From Apostichopus japonicus (taxonomy: Eukaryota; Echinodermata; Holothuroidea; Aspidochirotida; Stichopodidae), in contig NC_092582.1 in NCBI RefSeq assembly GCF_037975245.1, forward strand, positions 4,690,001 to 4,754,000: DNA of 64,000 nt. The letters are read 5' to 3'. The translations under genes and the position numbers were made by a program. Below are positions 4,433 through 50,800 of the stretch, one piece after another; within the stretch, counting starts at the first letter, position 1, and the number at the start of each line of letters is the position of its first letter. The notes beneath the pieces are model-generated. The model did no database searches. It worked only from the letters and a program-made list of their open reading frames with translations, and had not been told where the DNA came from.

Positions 4433-7400
4433 GTCAGTGCTTTTCCTGTAAATCTTGTTCTATAATGATCGAAAGGCTAACAAAAAATTACGGCTACTGT
4501 AGTGCTATACTTCCTTTCGGAAGTTTTGGTTAGGTCTAAGGTTGATGTATGCGATAACTCGCATCGTTAGGCTACTACTAGTACTAGCCTAGTAGTATTA
4601 ATTTTAATACCGATTACGCCGGGTCTCATGATGAATAAGTATCCATCGCCTTTTCGGTCACAATCGTACCTTATCAGGATTAAAACAGACTTTCCAGATT
4701 ACTTCGCCAAATCGACATTAAAATACACCTAAAAGTTCAAGTTAGTCACTGCTGACAAGTGACTGGATTTACTTTAATTTTTTTTTATTTATAATACTAC
4801 TGAGCACTACTACTACTCTAGGCTAATGTTTGGCTAAGTTTTTTAAGAGGGCGGGGGGGGGGGGGGGGGCAACGAGGCTGAATTTAAGGTTTGTCAGTAC
4901 CACACAAGTTAAATAATGTCAGGGAGTTTTCTATTTATAGGTGACATTGACAAGTTTGCTATAGCCTAGGTTTGCAATTGTATCTTCATGAAGTTCATGT
5001 AGCAACTTTACTGTTCACATCCTCTGAAACTGAAAGCAAGCTGTCAGTGTTATTGTTTTAGTGATCTGTGACGTTAGGTCTAATGTTAGTTTTGATTCCT
5101 ATCATAGTTTGTCACAAACTGTGGAGCTGTTATCAACATCATTTGTTTTTCATTATAAGGATATATGCTTATGTCTTCATGATTCACTGAGATTTTGCTT
5201 GAAAAGCCAACAATACTTCTGATATTGAGAACCCAATTGAATTGGAATTAGCTAGGCCTAGTAAGCAGTAGTTCTGTGTTGAAGGGTGTGTTGAAAGGGT
5301 AAGCACAAATATAACATCACCTCATCAATTAATATGACTCACTACCATTGAGGTCTATTTTAGCTAGGAATTCAGCATGTTGTTCAGACTTTCATCTTGT
5401 TATTTTATATATTATAGCTTAGAAAACCCCCAAAAACCAAGCCTGTCTAGGCTAGTAAGAAATGTGGCCAAAAATGTGGTAAGAATGTGGAAACCCTATA
5501 TTACCTGCAATGAAGTAGATGGACGAAATTATAAACATGTTCTCTGTAAGATTTCAGAGAGAAAATTGATGATTTTGTTCTTTATGACAGGTCAGCCCCT
5601 TGATTGTGGAGGAGCAACTATTATGGATGAATAATATAGAGTATGTGACAATGTACAGGTGTCCTCTGATCACTTATACACCAAAGGGTAACTTGCTCGC
5701 TATTGTAGAAGGAAGAAAGTCTTCTACCGGGGATGCCAGCAGCAAGTTCATCGTAACCAAACGATCGACTGATGGAGGTACAGTACGTCCTTGTAAACAG
5801 GGAGATTAACTATTTGCTTCATACTCCATAGTGTACTCTGCTTAATAGTCAACCCACTCAGTTGTATCTGTTTGCCCCCAAAACTGTGATGTTTGTGTCA
5901 CCAGCTACTTGTCTATTCTTCCAACTCTACCCTTCTGAAGTTTTGTAGGTTACCAATTCAGCCTTCATCTTCTTTTCACATGTATAACTTTGACCATCTG
6001 CCTCTCTCTCTCTCCCTTCCCTCGCCCCCCCCCCCCACATCTCACAGAAACATGTACACAATGAGACACACGAAGTATAGGCCACCTACAGTTCAGGGAC
6101 AAAGCTGTGGTAATAGGTATGGCAATGTTTAGAGGTGTGAAGATAACCTCTTAACCAGTAACTTAAATTGAAAGTAATACACCAGTATCAAGAAAAAATG
6201 ACATGGAAAATTTAGTTTAATGGAAGTCAATTTGCACATTTCCCCAAAAATGATATCTTGAACCTTGAGAGTATAGAATACTGTAGTTCCTACCCTTTTG
6301 CTTCGCAATTGTAGCATGTAATAAAGGAAAAAGTATACATGAAAGTTGAGCTACATTGCATTTAGCAAGTCTTTTAGGTTGAATGGATATATCGGCCATT
6401 CTGTACGGTGATAATCATCGAAGCAAACATGGGTCGTCCTCCTATGGCACCAATTGTGTAGTTCCCACTGATTGCCTCTCCAAACTAAATAACTTGAACC
6501 TTCTGCCCTTTTCAGGATCTGAATGGAGTGAAGAATCTTTCATCTATGACGATGGTAAGGTCGTGGACGGTGACAATCTGGGTGCGATCTTAGTCGATGA
6601 CGATACAGCTAGTATCTTCCTCTTCTTCACGCTCTGTCCTCATCACAAGAACTGTACCATTACGTCCATGATGTACATGAAAAGTGTAGACGACGGAATC
6701 TCCTGGCAGAAACCAGTCAACATAAGTGCGTCCATGAAAGGGGATGGATTTCCGATGCCGTTCGGCCCAGGTCGAGGTATACAGGTAGGCGTCAATTCAT
6801 TCAATGCTTTCAAACGAGTAGCAGGGCTGATCTCCGAGTTTAGGACGGTCTTAAAATACAACAACTGGGATCAGAGACTGACCGATCGATGTTGGTTCTC
6901 TTTGATGTGTTGTGAATCTTGATTGTAGGTGGAATTTACACTTACTCACACTTACATTGTGCGGATGCTACTTGCATGTGTAGTGTCACCTGGAATGGAA
7001 GTGGGATAACTTCTAAGTAGATTTAAAATTGAAGATTGCTGGGAAAATTAGAAATTAATATAAACCTTAATTAATATGTTGAAACATAAGAGTGGGTATT
7101 AACAGTAAGTTCCAACATGTTATCTGCTGTAAACATCAGACCTTCGATGGATATTTTTTAGTTGTACAGTACCAAACAGATGAACATAATCAAGATGTAA
7201 CACTTTTACAGATATTTTGGTGCTGAGTAAGCATATATATTTCATTATTTGAAGTTTGTGGATAATTTTATGCCGACTTCATTTTACATAACATTGTGAT
7301 ATTTAACACTATAATCTCATATTTCTCATTTTTTATCATACTGTATTTGTACATTTTAGTATTAGGGTGACCCATGCTTGTATCGTACAATGTATATCAT

Positions 7401-10400
7401 ACAAGTCAGTGTATAGTCACAATGCACTGTACACAGGCAGCCTAACAACAAGATGGCCTCAGTCAGTGAGAATTATCCAAGCTGACCAAGGACTATCACC
7501 AAAAGGGTGAAAATAGGTGTCCTCCAGGGACCGAAAGGCCCCCATAACTTGAGTCTAATTTGGCCCGCATATAATTCACAAAGTGTTCCAGCAAAGATTT
7601 ATTTCACCCTACACAGATGATACACAGATTGTGTAGTATTAAAAGTACATGTACATATTCGTAGACTCAATCACACAATATTCATACTGAACACTTGTAC
7701 CGCAGCAGACACACAGTGCACAGTAGCAGAACTGTGGACTTGATTATATTAAGTTGGATACAACAGGTTTTCTTTGCCAGGATTTGGTACAGTAGTATCA
7801 TGGCATTGCTTGGGTGCCTTATCACACTGCACTCAGGTACAATTTCAGTAGCTGCAAAGAATTTCTGTAACCAGTCGTTGGGTGTTGCAAGGTGACAATG
7901 TCCTTTTTTTTTTAACCACGAATAGCCAAGATTTGTGTCAAGTCATCGATTATGAATTTGTTAAGCTCTACTCAAGCCAGGATGTGTCGAGCCCTAGACT
8001 CTGAATGTGTTTAGCTCTACTCAAGCAAGGATGTGTCGAGCTCTAGACTCTTAATGTGTTAAGCTCTAATCAAGCATGGATGTGTCGATCTCTAGACTCT
8101 GAACGTGTTAAGCTCTATTCAAGCAATGATGTGCCGAGCTCTAGACTCTGAATGTGTTAAGCTCTAGTCAAGCAAGGATGTTGAGCTCTAGACTCTGAAT
8201 GTGTTAAGCTCCATTCAAGCAAGGATGTGCCGAGCTCTAGACTCTGAATGTGTTAAGCTCTAGTCAAGCAAGGATGTGCCGAGCTCTAGACTCTGAATGT
8301 GTTAAGCTCTAGTTAAGCAAGGATGTGCCTGAATGTGTTAAGCTCTACTCAAGCAAGGAAGTGCTGAGCTCTAGACTCTGAATGTGTTAAGCTCTATTCA
8401 AGCAAGGATGTGTCGAGCTCTAGACTCTAAATGTGTTAAGCCCTTTCCAAGCAAGGATGTGTCGAGCTCTAGACTCTGAATGTGTTAAGCTCTAGTTAAG
8501 CAAGGAAGTGCCGAGCTCTAGACTCTGAATGTGTTAAGCTCTACTCAAACAAGGATGTGCCGAGCTCTAGACTCTGAATGTGTTAAGCTCTATTCAAGCA
8601 AGAATGTTGAGCTCTAGACTCTGAATGTGTTAAGCTCTATTCAAGCAAGGATGTGTCGAGCTCTAGACTCTGAATGTGTTAAGCTCTATTCAAGCAAGGA
8701 TGTGTCGAGTTCTAGACTCTGAATGTGTTAAGCTCTGGTTAAGCAAGGATGTGTCGAGCTCTAGATTCTTAATGTGTTAAGCTCTATTCAAGCAAGGATG
8801 TGCCAAGCTCTAGACTCTGAATGTGTTAAGCTCTACTCAAGCAAGGATGTGCCGAGCTCTAGACTCTGAATGGGTTAAGCTCTAGTCAAGCAAGGATGTC
8901 GAGCTCTAGACTCTGATTGTGTTGAGCTCTAGTCAAGCAAGGATGTGCCGAGCTCTAGAAGATCTAGTTAAGCAAGGATGTGTGCGAGCTCTAGACTCTG
9001 AATGTGTTAAGCTCTAGTCAAGCAAGGATGTCGAGCTCTAGACTCTGAATGTGTTAAGCTCATCCTCGTCCGATATCTCGAACCTTCGTAAAGATACAAC
9101 GGGCGAATTTCTATATTTTCTTTGTACAGTTTTGTTGTATGCATCATTGATGATAATTTTGTTGCCTCTCTCCAAATAGCTCAAAAATGGGAAGTACAAA
9201 GGAAGGTTGTTGGCCTGCGGTCATCGTAACAGCTACGTCCAGTGCATCTACAGCGATGACCACGGTAAAACTTGGAAGTACGGACTTACAGTGGAAAGCA
9301 TTCCTTCCACTGGCCTTAAAAAGGGAGACTTTGCACCGAATGAAAACCAGGTAATTTGTTTACATCTCTTTTTTTCCCCGTTTTTTTGGTCCCTTTTATA
9401 CCCTTTTACAAGTTTTTGGGTTAATATTTAGTTAATTTCAGACTCTCTGCGACTTATTCTGAGGGGTGAAGGCTTTATAATGTAGGGAGTAATAAGTGTT
9501 ACTCATAAATCCATAGTAATTTTGTGTACTAACTACTAACATAATCACTAAAAATCATTGGCCAGTTTTCTAGCCATGTAAAATGCCAAATTAATATCCA
9601 AACAGTGCTTTCTCTATAGCCAGCAACTAAAAAAAAACAAATCTAGCATTCTGGTCATGAAAAATACTGGAACACAGGAAGACAAAAGGACATGTTCAAG
9701 AAAGTGGTACAGTTGTTCGACAAAAATCGCAATCCTAGATTGCCTTCAAAATTTGTGTACATGCTGCCGTTGGTGCGACTATCCCTCCCACTTTTTCTAA
9801 CTAGCTTTCAAAATGATAAACGACTTCCTTCTTGGATCAAATTTCTGAGTAATGTATTTATTTATAGACTGACAGTTTTCTTCTTCTTCTTCTTCTTGTG
9901 TCTTTCTCTGTTGTTGGCTTATAGCCCGAGGAATTACCAGACGGTACGGTCATGCTCAACATCCGAAACGAATACAGTTACCATTGCAAGTGTAGGATTG
10001 TTGGCCTCAGCACGGATGGAGGAGAGAGTTTACCGACATCCAACATTAAATTTGATGCGGCGTTGGTCGACCCAGTGGTCTCGGCACACATCTTAATGTA
10101 CCAAGGAATCCTCTTTTTCTCCAACCCAGCTGATACACTTGGCCGTAAGTTGATGTTCATGTCGTGTGATTATTCGTTTGACCTTCCTTCTCACCATCAG
10201 ATATGCCTCTCAACTTTCGTCGGTATTTTCCAGAATTCGAACACGATGACAGGGGTAAAATTCTGAACACCTTCATTTACCTATCAACTGCATGCATGGC
10301 ATCACAGGACAAAGGTTTTCTCATAATTTTCATCTGGTCGTACGAGATGGTCGAATCTCTGTTTGGACGACCGAGATGAGCTTAGAAGTTTGTTCGGCGG

Positions 10401-14114: not shown

Positions 14115-14294
14115 CATGATAGATTATTCAAAATTAGTCACGGGGTTGCTTTAATAATCTTTTCCCTATTGCCCGTGATAAGTGATTTTTAATCGGTCTC
14201 AAACTACACGTGGTAATTAGATTTTTTTTCAGCCACAATTTGTTGTTATAATCAAGCAGGAAAAGACTGAGTGTTTCAGAAGCAGGGTATAGTT

Positions 14295-14512
14295 TCAACA
14301 AGGAGGTGACTCTGGTAAGCGAGTACGTGTGTTTGGAAGTTCTTTTCCGCTTTCTTCATCAACGCACCAACAAACCACACCGTCCACGGCACACTGCAGT
14401 GGTCTATACAGGACGCCACCCTCCTCACATCGCGGTAGGAAGCTGTCATTCGAAATGTCATCCTTGATCAAGATGTCCGCCAAGTGTGTGATGCAGTTAG
14501 CATATCCTTTCT
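14295..14512 (-). CDS. Lipocalin-Tg1 exon 5 (thyroglobulin type-1 domain)
   Basis: Residues 210-281 and TGA. The acceptor is ctgcag|AG. This single exon encodes a complete Tg1 domain: YANC, PRCEEGG, YRPLQC, VVCWCVDEESGKEL, NTRTR and PPC. Confidence 0.93.
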
Positions 14513-17500
14513 CTGCAGTGGTTGAGATATAAAAACAAAAAAATGGTTACTCGGATAAATATGTCTACTGTGGCATCATATTGGCACTGCCCCCGCCCCC
14601 CCCCCCCCCGTCCCATTCCGACGCGATTCGAGGAAATGGTTCAGAGATCGTTTACAACTAAGGGCTGTTCATATACTCGGTCGGTAGCCGGAGCACGTGA
14701 CAAATAATCCTATAGTCACTGGTTCGGTCTAGCCAATAAGTTCATTGCTCTCAAAATTCATTGATGAAATCTGAGCATTCTCTTCGCAAGGTACGTACGT
14801 TATCAGTATAGAATTAGACTTGATATACGCTAATACTATAACAAGTAGTGTACTGCCTACCTCGAAACATTAGGTTTTAGTAAGCGATTCTTAATACACA
14901 GAAACTCCTCGGTCTGCGCGAATATTTTTGAGGATCAGAGAGCATCCAGGAAAAATACTTTCAATAAATATTGTAATTTTATAGCTTGTTAAATATTGGG
15001 CCTAATGTCCCTCTGTTAAATCAGCAAAATAATCAAGGACTTTGGTTAAAGTTTAACCATTTACTACGACAAATTCATACAAAAGGGATTTCCAATTTCC
15101 CCTAACACAAAACAAGAATAAAAAACGAACATTCTTACCGGAAGACAATCCAGGGACGCCCAGTTGAGCATCGCACTCTGTGGAGCGAAACATAACGTAA
15201 CATATTAACTGTTCATCGTTACAATGAGGGGTGGGGTGGGGTGTGAGCGAAGTGGTGCACACTTTGCTAATTTATAGCATATAACTTCTCAAAAAGGAAG
15301 GCGTCAGTAGCTTTCATAATTATAAAAAATACTTCTAGTTGTAGTTTCTCCCTGGTTCCTCTTTTCATATGCTGTCACAACTTAATTATGATTGCTTGGA
15401 TAAGAAACAAGAAATTGCCAGCGTTACAAGTATAAACCACGACTAGGTAAAATATTGGTTGGTGTGCTATGAGCAACTATTGTGATGAAATTATTAGGCG
15501 TTTCTATTCACAAAGGCCAGATCCCCTCAAATCCAAACTAGCTGTTAAGTAATTTTTGTGAAGCATTCCCCCATCATATGTCGTGCAGCATCCTCCCCTA
15601 TTACCCATCCCCGCCTCTCGTTCACTGCAACGAAGAAAGGAACAAAACAAAATAAGCGAATGTCAACAAACAATCTTGCATCAAGTTGAGTTTTAAAGTT
15701 GGTTTGGCCTAGTAGCAGTGGCGGAGATTTCTTGTCAGAAGTGGGGGGGTTGCAGGCCATTGATGAAATAAAAAGTCATAACTGCTGGCTCACTATCTAA
15801 GTGGAGCGCCACCATAAGTTGGCGCGAAGTGCACAAGAATTTTTTGGCAAATATTGCCTCCCAGATTGCAGTAAATGACATTGCCCAGGCCTTGAAAAGC
15901 TGCATTTAACCAGGGGCGTTTGCAGGATTTTCTAACCCGGGGGGAGCGTATTACTATCTAAGCGGAGCGCCACCATTGGTTGGCGCGCAGCGTACAAGCA
16001 AATTTCTGGTTTTGGTACCCCCAGATCACCGGAAATGGCACTTCTCGGGCTTGAAACTGACCAACCATAATATGTACACTTTTGCCTGAGAACCAAGTTT
16101 TTTCCAAATACTTTTTCTCTCATCTATAACCTTTTTGAAGATTGTCACCAGTCACACATCATGTTCGACTTCATCACATATCCTGTGGATCATTGCTTTT
16201 GTAGGTGATTCTTCATCGCGGCCCACAATATCCGTCAGCCCCACTTTTCAGAATTTGAAAATTCACAATTCTCGTGAATAAATTCACTTCAAAACATACC
16301 CATAATGTTGCACAAAATATCATCTATGGACAACCGATATAGAAAAACCTCCTTCAAACCCTAACAGACGGGTCAAAATTGCACGAGTATGATGAAGTAT
16401 GATGAAGAATGTTGGTTAGGGAATTTTCGAAAATTCAGACGGCTACTAAAAAATTTCGTTGAAGGAAATAAAAATATACCAGATATTTCCGAAACCGAAC
16501 ACTACACACATCGACAGTTTTGAGCATGGGCGCAGATCAGTCTTGGATAATGGTGGGGACACGTGTCTGTTCTATGACACTATCTAAGCGGAGCGCGACC
16601 ATGGGTTCGCGCGTAGCGTACGATTTTTTTGGGCAAATATACCTCCCAGATCGCCGGAAATAACACTTCCCAGACCTAATGATGCTCCTAAACCTCCTTA
16701 AGTTTTAGATCTCATGGCTTAGAAATTTAGTTTGGAGAAATACATGGGCGTCTGCAGAAAGAAAATCAGGGGACAAATAATCCAAGTAGACTTTTGTATA
16801 TACGATGGGTCTGGTGTCCTCTCCCAGAAAACAAATATAGACTGCCGCAAATGCGATTTCCGTCCTATATTTAACAACTGTGGATAAAATACAATAAAAT
16901 GAGAACTGCTGCATGTCAATTGCACAATGCTGGATCAAACTGCGCCAAAGTTCAATACAGGGGAACTTGAAATGCAGCTATTGGTCAAGACAAATTGGTG
17001 GGGACACGGTATATCATGTCCCCACTACTGAAAAAGTTGGTGGGGACGCGTCCCGCTGTCCTCACCAGGATCTGCGCCCATGGTTTGGAGGCTGTTTATC
17101 GTGGAACGCCATTTTCATGCTCACTGATATGATGTGATATCTGCTGTTTGCTTTACAAATTCGAATAATTTTGTCACTGTTCCTCTTTCTCTTCCCGTTT
17201 TCTTGCCGTATTTTCTACTCCATCCTTTTCTCCTTTTCTTCTTTTTCTTTTCCTTCCTTCACCTCGTTGAAGTTGGCAAGTGTATACAGTTCCAAAGCTA
17301 TTCAACAGCAAAACGTTATTTTGTGTATGTCTGTTGTGGAGTGAAGTTAGCGCTATGAGCTACTGTACAAGTTCCAATGCGCAAGGTGGGGGAAAGGGGC
17401 TAGAAATAATGTGTGGGTCAATTCTAACTCGGTTTTCTATCGTTAATTGTTGATGTAGCCTACCAGGTAAAAGGTTGAAATGACTTTAACAATTTCAAAT

Positions 17501-20060
17501 TTAATAATATGATTAATTATGCCATTTGGAGCACATAACATAGGCCATAACATAACATTACTGGCAAAATCTAGGGGGGGTTGATTGTGTGGGCCAACCC
17601 CCCCTCTTCAAAAAGTGGGGGGGTTAAAACCCCCCCAACCCCCCCTGTTTCTCCGCCACTGCCTAGTAGGCTGTACTTAGTGTAAGCGTACCTGTTGGTA
17701 TCTCGGTAATACGGTCGATGTGGAGACAGAGTTCATTTAACATTTTATTTGCGACCACTTTATTGCTTCCTTGATCGAGAGGCTGACCGGACCTGCTCAT
17801 AATCCACGCATGCGTAAGAGCAGGATCACACGTTCCATCGTCTTGAACCTGACCACAGCTGTATACCAACGCGTAGTTAACGTAGTCCGTTGAAATAACC
17901 CAATAGTCCTCTACAAGGCAAAAAAAAAACAGAAAAATGAGGAAATGGACAGTTTTTGAAATACATGAAAGAGCCTTTGGAAATCCTACGACTTGAATGA
18001 TCATGTACATTAGGCCAAATCCTCAACTGGAACGAGCGCTGGGGTGCCAGTGTGTGTGTGGAAGGGAGGGGGGGGGCGGTCAGTAGAAAGTTTTACACAA
18101 ACTATGTTTACAATCACGTGACCATAGTCCTATTGACGGGGATATGGCGCAGATAACGACTCCTGCCAATGGCGAACTCATGTTTCAGTAAACACGTGTG
18201 TCCGCCACTCAGGTGAAGTCATGCAGGGACCATAGAAAACTCCCTGAAACATGTGTGGTAGCTAATCTATTTCGACATCGTTTTAGTCATGATGTTTTGA
18301 TGAAACAACATTTCAAGGATAAAAAAAATTTATCAAGTCGATCTACCTTGAACAGTAGCCACGAATTCGTGAGAAATATGTTGTGTGTGTTTTTCACGAT
18401 AGCCTCAGTATAATGTTTGATTTCAGATTACCTTAAAGGGTGTGAAGACTCGCGCAAAAAGAAACGTCTAATGCAGGTAATCTGACCTAGTTTAGAATGA
18501 GGTGTAACAGAAGTGTTAAACACCACCATCGATCCCAGAAAATAATGCACACACAGCTTGCTACCGTCGTTAAGTTAGACACTAGTGTACAGCCAGTACA
18601 TACAGCTGCGGTGAATACCCACAGCACAGTGTATAAACGATACAGCGATGGACATCTCAGGTCCAGCTAAAGAAAACAAGGTATTCACGTTTCATTACTG
18701 TCTGCATTTTGTAGCGACACGAACAAAACGTCACTTGCAAGCAACGGAAAGTTAACTTTTTCAGATGGCCGCACGCGGTTTGGGCGAGTCTTCAATGCCT
18801 TTAAATTTCCCTCAGTTAAATAGATTACCTGGCTCCACTTCAAGGTTCTCAATGTTTGGTCTGACAAGCATTTTGGCCGGTTGTGTTGCATCTGGACTCC
18901 ATCCAGTTACCTCGAAATGCCATGGCTCTTCACAACCTGCTGGTTCCACAATTCTCTGTGTTGCCATGGAGAACGTCATATCACTGTTTAAATGGTAGTG
19001 TGATCTCCGCTGGTAAGGATAGACGCCATCTTGGATGTGAGCGACGATATACCACGTGCCAACGTACTATAGAAAAGGAAATTAACATGAGATTTCGACG
19101 TTTATGTATAGTATATAATGTAGAACTTACGAAATTGTCACATTGAGGAAAATTCATTGAGTGGAGCTTTGTTGGAGAAGTGAAATGAAAGAGGCATCGT
19201 AAGGGTATGGCCGTGCAAAACCAGTCATGTACTCCAGCTATATCGACCCAACATCAGTAATAACTTCTATAACTTCTAGCTTTGGTTTGCCCTGTGAGGT
19301 TCGATTGACATCAATAATATCACAATAACTGACCTTAAACTAGAAATAACCCCCCAGATCACAATCCTTAGATAAAATACAGGGATGGGGGTAATGGTGG
19401 GGGGGCTGGTTAATTACTTATTATCTTTAATCAGAGATGTTTATACTTGTAATGTTGACCTTTTTTTATACTGTTACCACTATTACCTTCTGTGCCGCTG
19501 TTTTGGTAGCAAAGTCGGTATCCATAGAGATGTCCCGCCTGAGCCACCCTTTCCTAGAAATATTTGATCCACCAATGTTAAGATTAAGGCCATTAATATG
19601 GGTAGAGGGGTAGCGTGCAAGTAGGAGCGAGGTGTGTTTGGACTTTGGGGTCGGTAGCAACTTTGTAAGACTGAAAGTGAGTGGTGTAGAGGTAGGCGGT
19701 TGAAACGTGGGCTACTCGAAGTAATAAATGATGTCTAACGTAGTCTAAACAACCACGTTCATTTAGGTCTATATTATGGACAAGAATAGCGATTAATCAA
19801 GTCAACGTTGCACTCAATAGGACGAAGTAGAGTTAAAGAACGTAAGTATATCCGAATTATAGTCTACACTCATAAAATTACAACAGAAACAATAACATAG
19901 AGTATCCTAATTGTAAACTGTTTCTTACCTTTTGAGGACTAAAATCATTCTGCAACGAAATCTCGGAGACTAAACATGTCTGAGCAGAAACCTCAGAAAT
20001 CACAAGAAAGCAAACAGCGACTGCAGCAAAACGAAACATTTTTTCGCTTCTTGAGTTCAT
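14295..20060 (-). CDS. Secreted lipocalin (apolipoprotein-D-like) fused to a thyroglobulin type-1 domain, five exons
   Basis: Minus-strand exons 19929-20060, 18829-19066, 17692-17910, 15139-15177 and 14295-14512 join to an open 281-residue protein. The lipocalin part has a signal peptide (core FAAVAVCFLVI, cleavage near SEVSA|QT), the first structural motif YVGTWY at 45-50 (GxW), and the second motif STDYVNYALVYSC at 130-142, as in apolipoprotein D. Such proteins carry small hydrophobic ligands. A 13-residue linker exon leads to a thyroglobulin type-1 domain, C216 to C281: cysteines 216, 238, 250, 257, 259, 281 with the signature QC (249-250) and CWCV (257-260). Known members of that family bind or inhibit cysteine proteases, or act as extracellular modules. 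The protein ends on the last domain cysteine. The last three introns are phase 1, the pattern expected for exon shuffling. Transposons occupy introns 2 and 3. Ligand and protease targets are unknown. An alternative start at codon 8 (MFRF) is possible. Confidence 0.92.
15139..15177 (-). CDS. Lipocalin-Tg1 exon 4 (39-nt linker exon)
   Basis: Residues 197-209 (ECDAQLGVPGLSS). Its acceptor is tccacag|AG and its donor TCCG|gtaaga. It is symmetric (phase 1-1), so skipping it would keep the frame. C198 probably belongs to the lipocalin C-terminal disulfide. Confidence 0.8.
15792..15900 (+). repeat. Internal repeat copy 1 of the hAT-like element
   Basis: About 105 bp beginning ACTATCTAAGTGGAGCGCCA and ending near CCTTGAAAAG. 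Similar units start at 15953 and 16579. Confidence 0.75.
15953..16055 (+). repeat. Internal repeat copy 2 of the hAT-like element
   Basis: Begins ACTATCTAAGCGGAGCGCCA, then GTTGGCGCGCAGCGTACAAG; it shares the CCCAGATC-CCGGAAATGGCA core with the other copies. Confidence 0.75.
16579..16680 (+). repeat. Internal repeat copy 3 of the hAT-like element
   Basis: Begins ACTATCTAAGCGGAGCGCGA, with GCGCGTAGCGTACGA and CCCAGATCGCCGGAAATAAC, followed by CTTCCCAGACCT. Confidence 0.75.
17692..17910 (-). CDS. Lipocalin-Tg1 exon 3 (TDY motif)
   Basis: Residues 124-196. The acceptor is ttgtag|AG and the donor ACAG|gtacgc, phase 1. It contains DYWVISTDYVNYALVYSC and a helix-like stretch ending HIDRITEIPT. 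The cysteines C142, C151 and C185 are candidates for lipocalin disulfides. Confidence 0.93.
18437..18800. mobile_element. TTAA-flanked MITE, copy 1 (lipocalin intron 2)
   Basis: A 364-bp element flanked by TTAA at 18433-18436 and 18801-18804. Its ends are AGGGTGTGAAGACTCGCGC and the complement of AGGCATTGAAGACTCGCCC, imperfect terminal inverted repeats of about 19-26 bp. TTAA duplications suggest piggyBac-type mobilisation. There is no coding capacity. Copies 2 and 3 lie at 35397 and 44772. Confidence 0.85.
18829..19066 (-). CDS. Lipocalin-Tg1 exon 2 (GxW motif)
   Basis: Residues 45-123. The acceptor is ctatag|TAC and the donor CCAG|gtaatc, phase 1. It starts YVGTWYIVAHIQDG, the lipocalin strand-A signature, and includes C89. 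Confidence 0.93.
19929..20060 (-). CDS. Lipocalin-Tg1 exon 1 (signal peptide)
   Basis: Residues 1-44, ending FSPQK with donor AAAG|gtaaga, phase 0. The hydrophobic core begins at F11. The second Met (residue 8) gives a more conventional signal-peptide N-terminus. Confidence 0.88.
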
Positions 20061-25679: not shown

Positions 25680-26400
25680 AAACCACCAATTTGTCAGCCT
25701 CTGCATTGAAACAATTGATATATCAGTCGCACCAGCCTCTAAAATGAACAATTTACACTCTCATCACTGTATGAGCCTCTGCATTCAAACAATTGATTTA
25801 TTATTCTCACCAGCCTCTAAAATGAACAATTTACACTCTCATCACTGTATGAGCCTCTGCATTCAAACAATTGATTTATCATTCTCACCAGCCTCTTAAA
25901 TGAACAATTTACACTCTCATCACTGTATGAGCCTCTGCATTCAAACAATTGATTTATTATTCTCACCAGCCTCTAAAATGAACAATTTACACTCTCATCA
26001 CTGTATGAGCCTCTGCATTAAAACAATTGATATATCAGTCGCACCAGCCTCTAAAATGAACAATTTACACTCTCATCACTGTATGAGCCTCTGCATTAAA
26101 ACAATTGATATATCAGTCGCACCAGCCTCTAAAATGAACAATTTACACTCTCATCACTGTATGAGCCTCTGCATTCAAACAATTGATATATCAGTCGCAC
26201 CAGCCTCTAAAATGAACAATTTACACTCTCATCACTGTATGAGCCTCTGCATTCAAACAATTGATTTATCATTCTCACCAGCCTCTTAAATGAACAATTT
26301 ACACTCTCATCACTGTATGAGCCTCTGCATTCAAACAATTGATTTATCAGTCTCACCAGCCTCTAAATTGAACAATTTACACTCTCATTCCACATTCACA
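25680..26400. repeat. 78-bp tandem repeat array
   Basis: About nine copies of a 78-bp unit containing CTCATCACTGTATGAGCCTC and CAAACAATTGAT. Two unit subtypes alternate (ATATCAGTCGCACC versus TTTATCATTCTCACC). Because 78 is divisible by three, a spurious 129-codon frame stays open at 25900-26289. Confidence 0.93.
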
Positions 26401-29800: not shown

Positions 29801-32800
29801 GGTTGTGTATCTTGACGGATCATTCTTTCCCAAGGGTTACGGCTCAGGCCTAAGCTGCATGGAAGCATGGTAGGGTAGCTAACCGACAAAGACTTTTTTA
29901 TCCACTTTAAAAAGTCTTTGCAATGATTGTGATTCAATTTTTATGCTGACAATCAACTTGTAATATTAACTACACATCGTTAGTACATGAGTGTAAGGTA
30001 AAACATATGGTAACATCCACAGCTAACTTATTCTCAACACAATGGTCGGAACTACCATAAACATTTTTCTTTAAATCCTGCAATGTTTTTCAACCATTTC
30101 CTGGGTCATACAAGATACAAGGACACTTATTTGAAGATCTCCATTTTGCTATTAGAGTGTGACTGTGGTAGTAAAAAAGAAAATTATTTTGAATGAATTG
30201 GAAATCTGCTCATTAATTAAAATTCAACCGGTGAAAGCTCTACAAGGGTGCTATACTTTTCACTTAGTTGAAGTCTTACACAAACACCACACAGGTCTGC
30301 CCAAAGTTGACAACCAAACAAAACCCACTGCTACAAGGTTATGTATTGAATACAAACCACTGCTACAAGGTTATGTATTGAATACAAACCACTGCTACAA
30401 GGTTATGTATTGAATACAAACCACTGCTACAAGGTTATGTATTGAATACAAACCACTGCTACAAGGTTATGTATTGAATACAAACCACTGCTACAAGGTT
30501 ATGTATTGAATACAAACCACTGCTACAAGGTTATGTATTGAATACAAACCACTGCTACAAGGTTATGTATTGAATACAAACCACTGCTACAAGGTTATGT
30601 ATTGAATACAAACCACTGCTACAAGGTTATGTATTGAATACAAACCACTGCTACAAGGTTATGTATTGAATACAAACCACTGCTACAAGGTTATGTATTG
30701 AATAAAAACCACTGCTACAAGGTTATGTATTGAATACAAACCACTGCTACAAGGTTATGTATTGAATACAAACCACTGCTAAAAGTTTATGTATTGAATA
30801 CAAACCACTGCTACAAGTGTATGTATTGAATACAAACATTCTTGAAGTGTACCTTTCAGTTGTAATTCTATGTATTCTAGAAAGATGCGGATAAGCTGAA
30901 CGATAGCGATGATGAGAGCACCGAACGCTACAGAGCCAGTATGGTACCTGACAGGAGAAAGATAAAACAGGTAAACAAATAAAACAAGTAAACAAATCAA
31001 CAAGTAAACAAATCAACAAGTAAACAAATTAACAAACAATCAATCAATCAACCAATCAATCAATTCATCCATCAGTTAATCAATCAATCCATCCATCCAT
31101 CTATCAATCAATCAATCAGTCAATCAATCCATCAATCAATAGAATTGTACGTCATCTAAACTTTAAGGGGTCCTAATTCCAACCTGCAACATTTCTTAAT
31201 ATCTAATGTCATTCAGTTTATGTTTATTAAGTTCATTAAGGGAGGAACCATGCAATATGAGCAATATTACATACATCATATTACCAGTAATATTATCATA
31301 GTACCAGCAACATCAAACTTGATCATAGCTGGAACTCTACTCCTCTGTTACAAATGTAGTTTAATAAGGGGGTGTCCCAATTGATCACAAAAGATAGTTT
31401 TATATACCAATTAACTTTAAAGGGGTGTGTCAAAATTGATCATTTATGGTTATCCTTATCTTACTATTATCTAACTATCTAACTTAAGGGTTAAGACGGT
31501 TCGGCTCTGGTGAAAATTCAACGAGCACACGCAAAACGCTGATTAAATTTTGAAATCTTTAACTCACGTAATAGTCCAAATGAGAGACCTCAACAGCGGG
31601 AACTTTGGGAGATCTTTTTTGTCGACAGTCCAGAAATATGTGGCGAAGACACCTGCTAAGATGACCTGGTTGAGTCCGATGATGAAATTCAACACCCACA
31701 GGTAACAGAACACGTTGATGAACTGCATGTAGTTATGATACTCTGGCAGCTCGTAGGAATTGAACATGCACTCCGTGGAAGTTCCTTGAGGATCAAACGT
31801 CTACGGGAATGACAGGAAAAAAGGTGACGCAATCAAATAAATAAAAAACAGACAGATTTAGATGGATGGATGGATAAATGTAGGATGTTGTTGACAGCAA
31901 AAGATGCCACTATGACCAATGACAGAATACCATCGCTATCATATGTTTAATCATAATAATAATCATAATGGACATTTATAATGCGCCGGTGTCCGTCAAA
32001 AAAGACGCTCATGGCACAATGACACAAACAGTGCGACAGCAAAACAAAAAACAGGTAACATCTTGTAACATCAGGTAATATCTTGCACTGATTCTGTAGA
32101 TTTTTACAACACCATATTCCCACTACAGTACAAAGTCATAGACACAGCAATTCAAATTTGACTCAAGTTATCTAAAAAAAAAGAAGAAAAGTTCCATGAG
32201 GTTGTGTAATATCATGTGGGTGAACATGTACTTCAAAATAAGTGTGTACAAGCCTGTCTTTGTTAGAACTGAATCAATGCATTACATAACTCCTTCACCA
32301 AGCTTTGAGAGTGGAGCAAGCTTGTACATTGTCTGTGTTTGATATCAACTGTGGGCAATATTTGGCGCAACAATTTGAGACGTTCTTATTAAATTTCTAC
32401 AAACTTAATGACCAAACTCAAAATGCTGCTTCGAGAGTTCTTAGGTCATATATCAGATCAAGTTCAAATCATGAACATGAAATTGACCCAAAAAACAAAA
32501 AAATCAAATAGGGCCAAAGAAATTATCAAAAAAAAGGAAGAAAAAGGGGGTTGTGTACCAGCCATCTATAAATGAATACAAATTTCTTCCGACATAGCTA
32601 TCCAGCCCCTCATTTTGGCAAGAATATCTATTGACCTGTTAATGTTCGCTGGGAACGCCAGTCGGAAGTGGCAATAACCTGCCTAACATCTTGCCCACTC
32701 ACCTTTACATCACAAGGTTCAAAATTTTGAAATGTCACATTGGTTCCGTTCTCTGCAGAGTTCACCACAAAGGATTTCTCCTTGGAAGTTGCCAAATATC

Positions 32801-41800: not shown

Positions 41801-44800
41801 TCAACCACTGATCACACTACACAATAGTTTAAACTAAAATTATCTACTCATTCATCTAGAACCTAATAGATTTGAACTCTTTCAACTTAAAATCATGAAT
41901 ATAATTTTCACAATTATGGTTACACATTCATGTTAACAATAGTCTACACTTTCAAATGCAACCAAACATGCACAGTTGCACACGCAAATACATATACATG
42001 CATACACATACAGCAGCGTGTGGGAAGTACATGCATACACATACAGCAGCGTGTGGGAAGTACATGCATACACATACAGCAGCGTGTGGGAAGTACATGC
42101 ATACACATACAGCAGCGTGTGGGAAGTACATGCATACACATACAGCAGCATGTGGGAAGTACATGCATACACATACAGCAGCGTGTGGGAAGTACATGCA
42201 TACACATACAGCAGCGTGTGGGAAGTACATGCATACACATACAGCAGCGTGTGGGAAGTACATGCATACACATACAGCAGCGTGTGGGAAGTAACTTTTC
42301 TGCTTGGAACACACACCTTAGCGGCTGAAGTGTGGTGGATTCTGAAGGATCGCAACCGCATAACCAACGCAGCAAAAGTAAACAAATCCATACATAACAA
42401 CATGTATACATGCGTGCCTGCCGGTACACTCAGTTACAACCGTGCCTGGTAAAAATACACACACCATAAAACTAATTAAATAAATTAAAAAAATGACATC
42501 GTTTATCACAACCACCGGTTGATTCCGAAACTGTGCTTGCCAAGACATACATTTACATACAATGAACTGAATTAATGAACACCGGTCCAAAGTGAGGTAA
42601 ACGTACGATAAATATCGGTGAAGGCTAAGGTTGGGTCTTGGCACGTGGCAAGGCAAGTCCTCAGAACAAGAAGAAAAATGGGCAAAAAAAAGCAACTAGA
42701 AATGACAAATTCATGTACTTCCCGCCTACATCTAACACAGACTTTGTGAGGTAACAGATAACGCTTCAAAAGCTTTGATTTTTTGAAGATCATAAATAAT
42801 CATATTTTTTTCTGAACTAGCTTTCAAAATTTCAGCCAATGAAAAGAGACAATATATGCTCTGTCACTTCATACCATTCAATCACAGTATCTGATTGGCT
42901 CCCTTGCCATTGACAAAAAACAATTAAACAAGCTGTTGGAAAAGCTCTGGAACCTTCTACTTCTGTGGTAACATTCATTAGTATATCGCAGTATGCTGGG
43001 TTGTACTGCAGCCTATCATACAGTTTAGAAGAAAGTTGTAACATTAGGCCACATAGTCACACTCTTGTCATGACGAAATAAAGACAGTCTAAGGCATTTG
43101 TTTTTCTCCTTACGTTTTATAGGACATATGAGTTATGAATTCTGTTTAAGGAGTGTCAGTTCCAGCTTTTGGAAGTTATATGTATGATATAGTCAATTTT
43201 CTCCCATCAAAGTTTCTTTTGTGACTAGGTGAATAGCATTAACTAGGATTTATTGCTTGTGTGGACCAAACAATGGACCTCTGCGGATATGAATAGACTT
43301 AAATGCATTCATTGCAGGGATTACGCTCTCAGATAAACAGTTTACCTCGATAATTGCAAATCCTAGACAAAAGGAAATGGGCGCAATATAACTGCCGTTA
43401 TTGCATCCCACACAGCTGAAAAGTAAGGATACTTCCACACGGTACTGTACATACATACACACATACAAACACACATATGCACATATAGATCAATACATAT
43501 ACATACACACACAGACAGACATATACACACATACAGACATACGTACATACCTGGCCTACTCGCTAAATAATATGGAGCACATTTTTGTTGATTGACAAGA
43601 TCTGCTCTTTCTGTCATAGACTGAAAAGAAAAGAAAAGAAATAATGATTGACCGACCACAAAGGGTTCAAAACTTTGCTGCCAAACTAATATTGAATAAA
43701 ACAAAGTATGATATTAGTACGGCTTGTCTCAGGTATCTCCACTGGCTTCCTCGTTACGTACAGAATATTATTTAGCTTACTCTGCATATATTTTTAATGT
43801 GTAAACCTAACCAGGCACCTAATGTATTAAATGGGTTACTTTAGAGTTAGGGAATCATCTGGGTATAGTCTTAGGTCAGCCTCTGGTTCTTCTTCCTTGT
43901 GCCTAAGACTAACATTTTATTATTATTTCTCAGTTCCTGGACCACAGGAATGAAGTAAACTACCAACTAAGGTTCAAAGCATTGATAGTTTCAATGTGTT
44001 AAACAAGAATTATAAGACACACCTAGTGTTCCCTGTCGTTTTTAATGTATAATTTGCCGCAGTGTTAGGTTATTAAGTGCCATTGGATACTACGTTGTTC
44101 TGTATTTGCGAGCACTATATAAAGCTTTGTAATAATAATAAACTTAAACTAGGTTTTTACATAAATTTGTAAAATCATTAACAGGTTATATGCATAATAA
44201 TATGGCAGTTGATCAAATAAAGACATCCTACTTGATTTTTTTTTTCCCCCCCCAAAGTGAAAGTTAATGAGTTGTTTACATTCAGTTGTCGTCACCATTT
44301 CATTGCCAAAACACATTTGATATTTTGAACTTTCTTTTTTTTATTAAATTATTAGTCAAAGATCAAAATGAAACCTGGAAAATATAAAACATTACAAATT
44401 TCACTTCATTATTTGAAATGAAGAAACTGCATTCTCCTTTTTTAAATTTTAACCTTTGACATTGAATTTTCCGGTTGATTAAACTTTAATGTGTACTGCT
44501 CAAACTTCGATAAATATCAATTGATAGCTTTGACCATTATTTTTGAAGAAAGTAGCTAAATACTTACTAGGTCTTCTGTCATATTGACATTGTCGACACA
44601 AATGAGATCAAAAACGCTGAGAACGATCATGGAAAGTGGAAAATAGTAATAATCAGGACACTCCTCTACACAGACCTATAAACAGAAGAAAAAGAAACAC
44701 AAAGAAATGTTGGTCAATTCTTTCTACAAGTTCTTCAGAATTGTCAAAGGTTATCTCTCTCTCTCTCTTAAAGGCATTGAAGACTCGCCCAAACTGCGTG

Positions 44801-47800
44801 CGGCCATCTGAAAAAGTAAACTTTCCATTGCTTGCAAGTCAAGTTTTTCTCTTGTCGCTACAAAATGCAGACAGTAATACCAGTGATACCTTGTTATCTT
44901 TAGCTGGACCTGAGATGTCCATCGCTGTATCGTTTGTTCACTGTGCTGTGGGTATTGACCGCATATGTATGTACTGACTGTACACTAGTGTCTAATTACC
45001 GACGGTAGCAAGCTGTGTGTGTATTTTCTGGGATCGATGGTGGTGTTTAACACTTCTGTTACACCTCATTCCAAACTAGGTCAAATTACAGGCATTAGAC
45101 GTTTCTTTTTGGGCGAGTCTTCACACCCTTTAAGGTGGTTGTAACTGGAGTGTAAGGTGTAAACTAACAGTCTACAAGTTATGCGGCACAACCCAACTTG
45201 CTCATTTATCATACCTTTTTCGGGGAATGAATTTATTCCACACAGTAATAACTATGTATATGGACTCACCATAATTTATTGGTATCCCATAATATTAGTC
45301 TCCATCAAGCTATAGGGTCAGTTGGGGTAGAGCCACTGGACCCTTTGGTCTGAAGTATTGGTCACATCAGAAGATCTCTTGATCAATATTTATTTGCCAG
45401 TGGTGAAATTTTGCTCATTTATAATATACATTTTTTAGGGTATGAATTTATTCCAAACAGTAATAACTCTGTATCTGGAATCACCATAATTTATTGGTAT
45501 CCCATAATATTAGTCTCCATCAAGCTATAGGGTCAGTGAGCCACTGGACCCTTTTGGTCTGAAGTATTGCTCACATAAGAAGATCTCTTGATCAATATAT
45601 ATTTGCCAGTGGTGTAATATTGGTCAATTATAATATACCTTTTTAGGGGTATGAATTTATTCCACTGCAGTAATAACTCTGTGCCAGTGGCGTAATTTTC
45701 CCGATGAGACTGAAGTTTGCAATGACTATATATTCATTAATCATTTGATAGTAATTGTGAGAATAAATTGAACAAGATATCTCGACTTTCTTCAAAATAT
45801 TGCTGTCTTGCCATGACCATGTTTATTCCTTACGAAGTCTTGTCGCAATTTACACAATAACAACATCATTTCAGATACTCCTGTACTTTGCAATGGAGGA
45901 TACTTCCAGTCTTAATGCAAGCTTTCCCTGCATGGGCAACTCCCCTGCAAAATGAATACATGCACTTTACACAGTGGACATGTTTCCATGTAAATGGAAA
46001 TGTTGTCAACACCCTCTCTGGAAATACAACCTAAATTCTTTGTATTAAATAAGTGAGTATTTATGAAGAAGTCTATTGGACAGCGACAACGTGTCTGTAG
46101 AGACCTGTGTGAACAATCAGGCAGTATGATAAATGTTTACTAAAAATTGAATTCACCAGGTTGATAATGTAGTCAAACAACGTTACCGAAAAACAGAGGA
46201 CGTATGCCTACCTGCGTTGTTGGGCAATTTAAGTTGGTAAGAGTCTCGACTTGAATGCAATCAACAAGATTGAAGTAGAAGAGGTACGGTTTTTCCCTGA
46301 AGGAAAGGAACCAAAGATAATCAGAAATCTAGATCAGAAATAAGGATAATTTCAAAGGGTTACAGTATGCAGTCTTGGTTGTGAGGAAAACCGTTTTTTA
46401 TTTCTCCTTCGAAAATTACGAGTTAATCCAGCCAAAGAATCGCATCACATTGTTTTCCGCAAGTTTGCTAGTTAATAAACGAGACCATCACGACTACAAA
46501 ATGTAGGACACAATTTTTGTGAATGTGACATTGCAGATCTCCACAAGTTGATAGCCTGCAAAATATATAAGTAGCTGTCCAAAAAAACAAAAAAAAATTA
46601 GGCTGTATCAAGATTGTGAGAAAAAAGACCACATAGTACCTGTCGGTTAAACTTTTTTTTTTTTTTTTTAAAAAGCAGAAAATGTTGGAAACAAGTCCCA
46701 TTTTCATATTTTGGAAAAATGTGATTAATACTTAAAATGACCACAAAAAAGCATCTCAGAGAAGAACCTTTTAGTATTAGAAACATATAAATTACCAAGT
46801 AATAACCATTGATTACCAAATTAAAAAAATAGAACCTGCTTTTAAATTGGTGTAAAGGTTGGAAAGAGTTTCGTATTCTCATTTACCTGACTTCGGCATC
46901 CACTCCACAAGTTCTGCCCTTTGAATCAGTTGGCATGACCAACGATGCAGGGTTTCCCTCAAGACCAGCTGGAAAGATTAATAGGATAGGTCAATATTAA
47001 GATGAATAGGATAGGTAATATTAAGATTGGATAGGCTAGGTTATATTAAGATTAATTAATAAGGTAAGTACTCAAAAGAATGATAAGGGAGTTTATACTA
47101 TGATTACTACAATATGTAGTAAAAAAACATTGATAGGAAAAGTAATAAAATAGTGATTGGTAAAGTAGGAATTCAAAAGAGAGATAAGATAGGTATCATT
47201 AAGTTAACTAAGAGAGGTAAATGCTATGATTAATAAGATAGGTAATGTTAAGATTGATAAAGATACTAGATAATATTAAGATTGATAAGATAGGTCATAA
47301 AAAGATAAATAAGATAGGTAGCAACAAGTATAATAAGACGATATGATCACTCTTGATCCATTTACTAGGTAAAAACATGATATAGGGCCATGCTTGATCT
47401 CGGGTCACGCTTGATCTTGGGTCACAGTTGACCTAAGGTCAAGCTTGATACAAAAGCAATATTACACTACAAAACTTATTTGTAACCCAGAGTTCATTCC
47501 AGGTATATGCCCAAATGAAGCCTCTCGGATCAAAGTCTGTGTTCACGTTAGGCTTATAGTCCCGAGGTCCATGTTGATCATGGAGTATTTGCTCGATCGG
47601 ATCAAGTGTACACATGTTAAAAAAAACAAACACCAGTGTGTGAATAAATCTCACCAATCAGGCCGACAGTCAGCCAAACTATAATCGCAAGGATGAAGAG
47701 AATCAGGCAAAGAACATCAGTCAGGGTCCTGAAATAAGACAAGAAGAGTACAAGAAGTACTTTAATGGCTTGATACAAGTCTGAAGATAAGTCATTAAAA

Positions 47801-50800
47801 TCACACACGTATGTCAAGGACTTTGAGCTGTATAGTCAGGTTGTTGATCAGAATACAAAGAAAATAATGTGCTATGCCTAATAAAACCTGTAATTAATCT
47901 GTGTGTGCTGAACTTATTAAAGTTAATGTTCAAAGTTTACAGTCATGAAACACCTTTCCACATGACTTTCGGTACTATGTCAAGTCAATTTAGTAGAATG
48001 CTGAGGTGTTGAGGGGGGGGGGGAGGCATAGCACCCTCCAGCCAAGCTGCATAGGGTGTAATCCTTTGTGTGCTGCCATTTCACAACAATAGGCACTGCT
48101 GTCTGCAGGTCTGAAGAGATAATACCTATAGTTTCAGGATTTCTTGGCTGTTACAGCTTTTCTTTTTGATGAAGTGCCTTACCTTGGTCATTGGTAACTG
48201 TACCAACTCTTTAATATGAAATACCCATATAACATTGATTTTTTTCAGTACATATGTGTAATTCAATAACACAGAAATATCTCTGTGTGATTACTGAAGG
48301 GCTGGCCTCCTGCACCTTAAGCAGCATGAAGACATGACATCACAATACAATTTTCAATATCCACAGCAGTCAATTTAATAAATACCCTTTCGATTGTCAC
48401 AGATGGATTTCAGTCTGTTTAGAACTTGAGGCGCTTCTTCCTGTACATATCCAATCAACCGGTAAATGTAATGTACATACTCTAAGCCAATTTGCATTCC
48501 TGTGCAAATGTTTTCTTATGCTATCCGTGGCTTTAAAATTTTGACTTTTGATTTCGTTCGAAACAGATTTGGAAGCGTTCACAGTTTCCCTTAGTTGCAC
48601 TGTAAACAGGATGTTGTGAGTTACCATCACCTGGCCTCCATACTACATACATAAAGTCTGTCACTTGTAATTTACTGCAACGATTCTGGAAACACTTTGA
48701 CCTATAGACAGTATAGGCAAGGTTTGATGAAAAATAGCTAACTTGCTACACGATATCAGATTTATGTACATATAAAAGATATTTTACGTATGTGAGGTTT
48801 ATATGCACAAAAGCCCTAATATTTTCAGTCATTTCTACAATTTCACAAACAGTACATACTCTCTGAATAATAATGGCCCCAACATGCAACTGGATTATAA
48901 CACTTTGATCTCATTTTTCTACATGAAATTAGCTGGATCTTGACAGAAAGATTTCAATACCAGGATAAATCTGTTGGTTTGCTACGTTTCGATATATATC
49001 TGCAAATCGCACATGCGCTGATATGCAGGTATATGTATGACAGTCAAGACAGGGATCGAAAGATCAGTGGGTGCTGATTTATGCCTGCTTTATCAAACTG
49101 ACAAGGTTTTAACGAAAACTACACTGTGTACAGTGTCCCTATAGCTTTGCGACTCAACAGCACTTGTACGGACGGTATTGTGATTTGTTCATGATGACAT
49201 CATCAAGGCTTTAATTGGCACAGCTTAGATCATAATAGATCTATGTATAAAAGTAAGTTGGCCTGACGTTTCGATCCTATAGCAGGATCTTCTTCAGAGG
49301 CTAAAGATTTTTTTTTTTTTTTAGCCTCTGAAGAAGATCCTGCTAGGATCGAAACGTCAGGCCAACTTACTTTTATACATTCTCCTACACAGGCTCTCTA
49401 GTGGATAAGCAGTTTGCTAACAGTTTTATTTTATTTTAATAATAGATCTAGACGCAAAACTGGTGTCCACAGAGTATGACATACATAGGCATAGAATATC
49501 ACAACAAATTATACCGATTACTCCACAGATCAGAATTGCAATTAACAGATTTTGATCATATTTATGGAATTTTAAGTAAATACAATTGCATAATTTTCAA
49601 TGTAGCATATATCTAAGTAATCTACTGCTTTAATCAACAAAATGAATAAGGTCGTATCAAGGCCAGTCAAACTTGACAATGTTTGCTGTCTATGTAGTGT
49701 TCACTGATGGCGAACAATCATATTGCAAAATAGAGAACTATATTATAGTATATATGTTTATATATATATATATATATATTTCATTAACATATAGTCTGTT
49801 CAAAGTATCTCTTTCGAGATCCGGCTTTAGGAATCACAAATGATTTTCGAGTTGGTTAGCATCATGTTTGATCTCTAGAGTAAGGCAAAATATGTCACTA
49901 AAAACAGAACTAGTATTGTTCGATACAGGTGACAAACGCCTACAGTGGAATTACGATCTTCCTTTACCGATTTAGAACCTCTAGACATACAATCAGCGTC
50001 CATGGCCTAGTTGGTTAGGGTGTCCGCGTACAAAGCGGGAGGCCCGGGTTTGAATCCCGGTGGAGGCTGGAAGTTTATTCACTGTTCTTGATTTTCCAAC
50101 TCATTACGATTTTCATTTATATATATATATATATATATATACATGTTTATATACTAGTACTGTATAATTAATTTACTTCCTTTGCAAAGCGCCTTGAGCA
50201 GTGACTTTTGTTTACTGATTTGGCGCTATATAAGTCTCATTTATTATTATTATTATACATCCACAATGCATAAGTACCATCACAAGATCTCACGTACACA
50301 CAATTTGGTAATGAATATTCATAAACACTAGTTAATTATGATTTTTCCTCTATAATAATTAATGAAAGAATAAAAAAAGTAAATCAATGAGAAGAAAAAT
50401 AAAAAAAATCTCTCATTGTGGAATTTATACAGATAGGCCTAAAATACAAATTGACTATAGGTTCATTTGTGCAAATAAAATACAAAGTCCTGATTAGGTT
50501 GTCTTCGAAAATACAATATGAAATTTAGCATTTAGTGTCAAATGAAACCACAGAACAGAAGTCTAATGAATTTGCTGGTGCCCGTATAAATGGATGTAAG
50601 AGCAATGCAGCTGATTTTTATGCATAGCCTAATATATATATATATATACATATATACAAAAGGGTGTATTTAGTATGTCACTACGGCGATGGCAAGACTA
50701 ATCCTATGGTGATGAAATTACGGTAAAAAGCACAATGATGCCAGAGACACCTATTTGCATAGCTATCGATAAATATCCACGCTGCTCAGATAAAGTATGA

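Follow-up and report, generated by a model that had tools for sequence, protein, structure and literature searches.

A Probable Lipocalin-Tg1 Gene on the Minus Strand

The gene described here lies on the minus strand of a 64,000-nucleotide stretch of the sea cucumber Apostichopus japonicus genome (NC_092582.1, here contig C22, positions 4,690,001 to 4,754,000; referred to below as the window), and appears to join a lipocalin to a thyroglobulin type-1 (Tg1) domain. The model consists of five GT-AG exons (Table 1) with intron phases of 0, 1, 1, and 1, joined in frame into a coding sequence of 825 nucleotides that encodes 274 amino acids and stops at TGA. A reading of the same DNA made from its letters without database searches (the sequence-only reading) had proposed that five exons join without a frame break into a signal peptide, a lipocalin, and a complete six-cysteine Tg1 domain, and the exons, phases, Pfam matches, and cysteine count bear this out. 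Translation could begin at the ATG at 20039 (274 amino acids) or at an in-frame upstream ATG at 20060, which adds 7 residues (281 amino acids); the start context at 20039 is the better of the two, as judged by eye. The motif positions given in the sequence-only reading (GTW at 47-49 and STDY at 130-133) hold in the numbering of the 281-residue version.

Donor sites of the four introns score at the 99.9, 98.7, 99.0, and 99.5 percentiles of all GT dinucleotides on the minus strand of the window, under a rough weight matrix; acceptors were judged by eye only. The exon 4 donor matches the consensus (CCG/GTAAGA) and leads in phase into exon 5. The protein begins with a signal peptide whose hydrophobic core reaches 3.31 on the Kyte-Doolittle scale, and is presumably secreted in a mature form of ∼255 residues. 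Cysteines are found at residue 10 (signal peptide), at 22, 82, 135, 144, 178, and 191, and at 209, 231, 243, 250, 252, and 274. The sole dibasic pair is an RR at residue 57, and no multibasic site lies between the lipocalin and Tg1, so that furin would not be expected to cut the two domains apart. Each domain has a match that is beyond chance by its E value, whereas their placement on one transcript appears likely from the intron phases, the splice sites, and the position of C191.

Table 1. Exons and possible 3' signals of the lipocalin-Tg1 gene, in coordinates of the window.
Feature	Coordinates	Strand	Content
Exon 1	19929..20060	-	Signal peptide and lipocalin N-terminus; ends in phase 0 at AAG/GTAAGA
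Exon 1 from ATG at 20039	20039-19929	-	
Exon 2	18829..19066	-	Lipocalin, with GTW motif and C82; begins in phase 0, ends in phase 1
Exon 3	17692..17910	-	Lipocalin, EDYWVISTDYVNYALVYSC...DGTC...ELCL; holds C135, C144, and C178; phase 1 to phase 1
Exon 4	15139..15177	-	39 nt, 13 codons, symmetric 1-1; encodes ECDAQLGVPGLSS, with E190 across the junction
Exon 5	14295..14512	-	Tg1 domain, cysteines 209-274, CWCV; TGA directly after the last cysteine
ATTAAA, possible polyadenylation signal	14188..14193	-	∼100 nt past the stop; pattern only
Second ATTAAA	starts 14155	-	Pattern only

An RBP4-Like Lipocalin Domain

In a first search of PDB sequences, RBP4 was matched over residues 21-179 (E = 1.9e-13), and a search with residues 20-202 again placed RBP4 first (7.3e-14 over 159 residues). 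Weaker lipocalin matches were Sandercyanin (2e-8), apolipoprotein D (ApoD; 2.6e-6), insecticyanin (1.5e-5), and crustacyanin (5e-4), with all others weaker than 0.01. The sequence-only reading had called the domain apolipoprotein-D-like; ApoD is also a lipocalin and has two disulfides, but among solved structures the E values do not support this label, RBP4 being the stronger match, and it was rejected. The Pfam family Triabin, itself a lipocalin family, was matched above its cut-off (9e-7; 29.3 bits, cut-off 21). The GxW motif is present as YVGTWY at residues 38-43, and the TDYxxYA motif as STDYVNYALVYSC.

RBP4 pairs its cysteines as C4-C160, C70-C174, and C120-C129. The lipocalin domain here also has six cysteines, four of which (C22, C135, C144, and C178) align with cysteines of RBP4, so that by alignment C135 and C144 would stand for the third disulfide, C120-C129. 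This third disulfide is given as a distinct feature of RBP4, and the three-disulfide pattern as common to APOM, in the available part of PMC8420045. The place of the last (sixth) RBP4 cysteine seems to be taken by C191 of exon 4, as judged by spacing: 12 residues lie between C178 and C191, and 13 between C160 and C174 in RBP4. Exon 4 had been described as a 13-residue linker in the sequence-only reading. By its spacing, C191 probably fills the position of the last lipocalin cysteine, so exon 4 is not purely a linker: it most likely completes the lipocalin, its remainder being connector. The true connector would then be the stretch of 17 residues that separates C191 from C209.

The domain thus resembles RBP4 in its GxW motif, its TDYxxYAxxYSC...DGTC signature, and its four aligned cysteines with two more in similar order, and differs from it in the C-terminal Tg1, a shifted C82, two changed pocket positions, and an echinoderm host; the likeness is that of the best structure match and does not imply orthology. 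Several observations weigh against an RBP4-type assignment. The ranking covers solved structures only and is not a tree. The general lipocalin models of Pfam stayed under their cut-offs (Lipocalin_2, PF08212, 2.9e-4, 21.3 of 24 bits; Lipocalin, PF00061, 0.004, 17.8 of 23 bits), but such a cut-off is no defining mark of the fold, and the score for the related Triabin family lies above its own. C82 lies near RBP4 C70 but ∼5 residues off, unaligned in a gapped region, and C191 falls beyond the end of the local alignment. Lastly, Tyr and Val stand here at the positions of RBP4 H104 and Q117, the second of which is His in the chicken chain, so that retinol is not assured as the ligand.

The Tg1 Domain and the Question of Inhibition

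The last exon carries a Tg1 domain that Pfam recognizes over residues 223-274 (Thyroglobulin_1, PF00086; E = 2e-13; 50 bits, cut-off 20.6), with six cysteines from C209 to C274, the QC pair, and the CWCV core. Exon 5 matched thyroglobulin with an E value of 2e-30, a sum across its numerous repeats, saxiphilin at 1e-12, and the invariant-chain fragment p41 at 1.6e-7. A fold prediction for exon 5 alone gave a helix followed by strands, at a mean predicted local distance difference test (pLDDT) of 54.7 and a predicted template modeling (pTM) score of 0.39, too weak for a structure search.

Taking both domains together, we favor, at a probability of about 0.5, a single gene for a secreted two-domain protein, in which an RBP4-type lipocalin carries a small hydrophobic ligand and a tethered Tg1 tail is probably non-inhibitory. 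The barrel would hold a retinoid, a carotenoid, or a lipid; one Tg1 module, added as a phase-1 exon, would be tethered to the lipocalin C-terminus by the 17 residues from C191 to C209, and this compact, disulfide-locked module would serve the carrier as an extracellular binding or stabilizing tail.

The reading of the tail as probably non-inhibitory turns on the L1 segment. Three loops of p41 bind cathepsin L, according to excerpts of PMC7863939 and PMC10889554. The residue six before the second cysteine (C2-6) is Asp here and Gly in p41 and both saxiphilin domains (3/3 thyropin domains). Gly also occupies C2-6 in seven of the nine other Tg1 exons of the genome, four of these seven being nearly identical copies from one cluster. 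In addition, an N224-D-S sequon precedes C231, at C2-7, and is unique among the 13 domains, since the 12 compared lack one there. The L1 comparison took in 9 of the 10 other Tg1 matches of the genome and no thyroglobulin domains, with p41 and saxiphilin domain 2 represented in part only. Because the loop that would enter the cleft lacks the p41 glycine and offers a glycosylation site, inhibition of cathepsins by the tail may occur but is the less likely outcome.

In the leading alternative, the protein would be a carrier with an active thyropin, its Tg1 domain inhibiting papain-like cathepsins or protecting the carrier from them. Ligand delivery would then be tied to protease control, the role put forward in the sequence-only reading, and AMBP and saxiphilin would have reached similar designs by convergence. 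We regard this as possible but only tentatively so. The domain is complete, and apart from L1 it is p41-like (SF-P-C, CWCV, and ELPNTRTR versus EVPNTRSR), which favors inhibition. Furthermore, two of the nine other Tg1 exons of the genome also do without Gly at C2-6, having Asn and Gln, and one loop residue plus a sequon is insufficient to exclude inhibition; these points tell against a non-inhibitory tail. Saxiphilin is a carrier with Tg1 domains that inhibits papain and cathepsin L, as stated in the accessible text of PMC7863939, yet according to that same text few Tg1 proteins have a confirmed inhibitory activity. The change from Gly to Asp and the sequon at N224 likewise stand against an active thyropin; together they make inhibition doubtful without excluding it, and we take them as a caution.

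The p41 fragment, a thyropin of MEROPS family I31, is like exon 5 a single Tg1 domain; unlike the protein here, it has PGSFRPKC in place of NDSFLPRC in the L1 segment and is not attached to a lipocalin. Saxiphilin is alike in being a carrier that bears Tg1, but it is built as a transferrin into which two Tg1 domains are embedded (PMC10889554, in part), in contrast to a lipocalin with one C-terminal Tg1. A third comparison is with the alpha-1-microglobulin/bikunin precursor (AMBP).

The inhibitor modules of AMBP are Kunitz domains, and AMBP is cleaved between its domains. No Kunitz match was found among the five Pfam families reported for our protein at E values up to 1, and the protein differs further from AMBP in having Tg1 instead of Kunitz and no multibasic site between its domains. 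The resemblance lies in one chain that joins a lipocalin to a protease-inhibitor module, the proteinase inhibitor bikunin in the case of AMBP (PMC8420045, in part), and it is counted in favor of an active thyropin. Alpha-1-microglobulin (A1M) contains a single disulfide, C72-C169, and leaves C34 unpaired (PMC11050150, in part), unlike the six lipocalin cysteines here; on this ground, and for want of a Kunitz match, the gene is not AMBP.

The intron phases suggest how the two domains of our preferred single-gene model came together. A search of the assembly (671.6 Mb, 35 contigs) found at least 11 Tg1 exons, one of them exon 5. A candidate phase-1 acceptor precedes the domain in six of the nine other Tg1 exons (L014, the second of L016, three of L017, and L020); in two of the six, a phase-0 candidate lies upstream of it as well. 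The acceptor phase was ambiguous at L018, and no candidate was found at L012 or the first of L016. A phase-1 donor, by a strict pattern, was present in three of the nine (L014, L018, and L020). The symmetric 1-1 exon 4, together with the phase-1 acceptors elsewhere, agrees with a Tg1 exon of phase 1 having been inserted, and the sequence-only proposal of exon shuffling through phase-1 introns is thereby supported; most likely, Tg1 was gained as a phase-1 exon inserted after the last lipocalin exon. L016 and L017 (C13:5,713,643-5,721,206) together hold five Tg1 exons, four nearly identical, and are likely one multi-Tg1 gene.

Other lipocalin-Tg1 genes were sought by tblastn in 10-kb stretches around the ten other Tg1 exons (L012-L021) and in L001-L011, and the best non-self lipocalin match near another Tg1 exon had an E value of 1.9 over 20 residues (L012), a search that diverged lipocalin exons could escape. 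Tandem lipocalin paralogues were looked for in C22:4,600,001-4,834,000 (234 kb), where no non-self match was better than E = 0.32.

No lipocalin-Tg1 fusion is named in the titles and abstract openings of the open-access papers listed for the two domains, although an unreviewed database entry may well exist. Nor is one mentioned in the available portion of PMC5673224. C. elegans MLT-11, which has a thyroglobulin domain, was considered as a precedent and rejected, as lipocalins are named in the sections of PMC13181417 at hand only as other, separate precuticle proteins. The sea-cucumber retinol-binding proteins in the accessible parts of PMC3735544 and PMC13403383 are of the cellular type or RBP2, and the excerpt of PMC11310086 names a brittle-star thyroglobulin-methyltransferase gene and no lipocalin. 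On that footing, this would be a new architecture made of known parts. If the transcript is confirmed, the protein would join AMBP and saxiphilin as a small-ligand carrier with a protease-inhibitor-type module.

An RBP4-like barrel in an echinoderm is also relevant to the age of dedicated retinoid carriers. The host's mitochondrial DNA is in keeping with such an origin: the first 2000 bases of the 16,099-base contig C35 carry COX1 and then a probable ND4L frame, and of the mitochondrial codes 9, 5, and 2, table 9 yields the COX1 residues expected (STNHKDIGTLY, LLTDRN), whereas table 5 places Lys at those sites and table 2 interrupts the frame. Flatworms use table 9 too, but the order COX1-ND4L and the sequence of COX1 suggest an echinoderm. 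The RBP/STRA6 system is tied to vertebrates in the part of PMC3546623 available, a review that names no earlier mechanism devoted to carrying vitamin A over long distances. A bolder interpretation would make our gene an RBP4-type, three-disulfide carrier of retinoids or carotenoids, a kind older than the vertebrate RBP/STRA6 system, in which a Tg1 shuffled in within this lineage links ligand transport to the control of cysteine proteases or to defense against them, parallel to AMBP and saxiphilin; we consider this full combination unlikely.

Transcript Structure and the Surrounding Window

We also weighed whether two transcripts or genes are present. The lipocalin would then end no later than exon 4, through a retained intron or a terminal exon that escaped notice, and Tg1 would belong to another transcript. 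Intron 3 is 2,514 bases long and contains repeats, which leaves room for such an arrangement. Were intron 4 retained, the reading frame of exon 4 would continue for 28 residues before it stops (frame 15053-15271), so a Tg1-less lipocalin isoform is possible. Against this, all phases fit and the donors are strong, exon 4 combines what is likely the last lipocalin cysteine with a consensus donor in phase with exon 5, and the stop comes right after the last cysteine of Tg1. In a scan of 14550-17691 for an ATG, a hydrophobic stretch, and a loose donor, nothing came up that would serve well as the first exon of an independent Tg1 gene. Three weak candidates were returned, of which only one, at 15171 (TTTGTATGA), had a phase-1 donor, and it overlaps exon 4 in another frame; the same scan recovers exon 1 of the gene, with AAGGTAAGA. 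For the stretch scanned, we accordingly rejected an independent Tg1 gene starting from a signal exon within intron 3 or 4, and a split into two transcripts is, in our judgment, improbable. An assembly artefact or a decaying gene is hardly credible, given the intact frame, the six lipocalin and six Tg1 cysteines, and a position within a 26.8-Mb contig.

Repeats occur within the introns of the gene. In intron 3, a 53-base repeat is present three times (15792-15844, 15953-16005, and 16579-16631), the second copy sharing 83% and the third 75% identity with the first. Intron 2 holds a repeat copy, seen as a peptide stretch shared by the stop-to-stop frames 18685-18906 (-) and 44621-44974 (+).

Elsewhere in the window, Pfam was run on 10 open reading frames picked from the 29 of at least 100 amino acids. 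Two exons on the plus strand, 6383-6919 and 9925-10263, are sialidase-1 (NEU1)-like, matching PDB 8du5 at 1.8e-22 and 3e-17; the first also matched Pfam BNR_2 (1e-6), under the cut-off. Between them, at 7953-9061, lies a tandem array of ∼20 copies of a 49-base unit. Further tandem arrays were observed at 25696-26388, 30325-30837, and 41995-42293 (units of 78, 32, and 33 bases; 96, 98, and 99% matches), and the first array is crossed by one listed long open frame, the last by several. An Rfam scan of the window returned nothing but a tRNA-Cys-like gene at 49995-50069 on the plus strand, to which ARAGORN assigns the anticodon ACA, unusual for Cys; it is possibly a tRNA-derived element.

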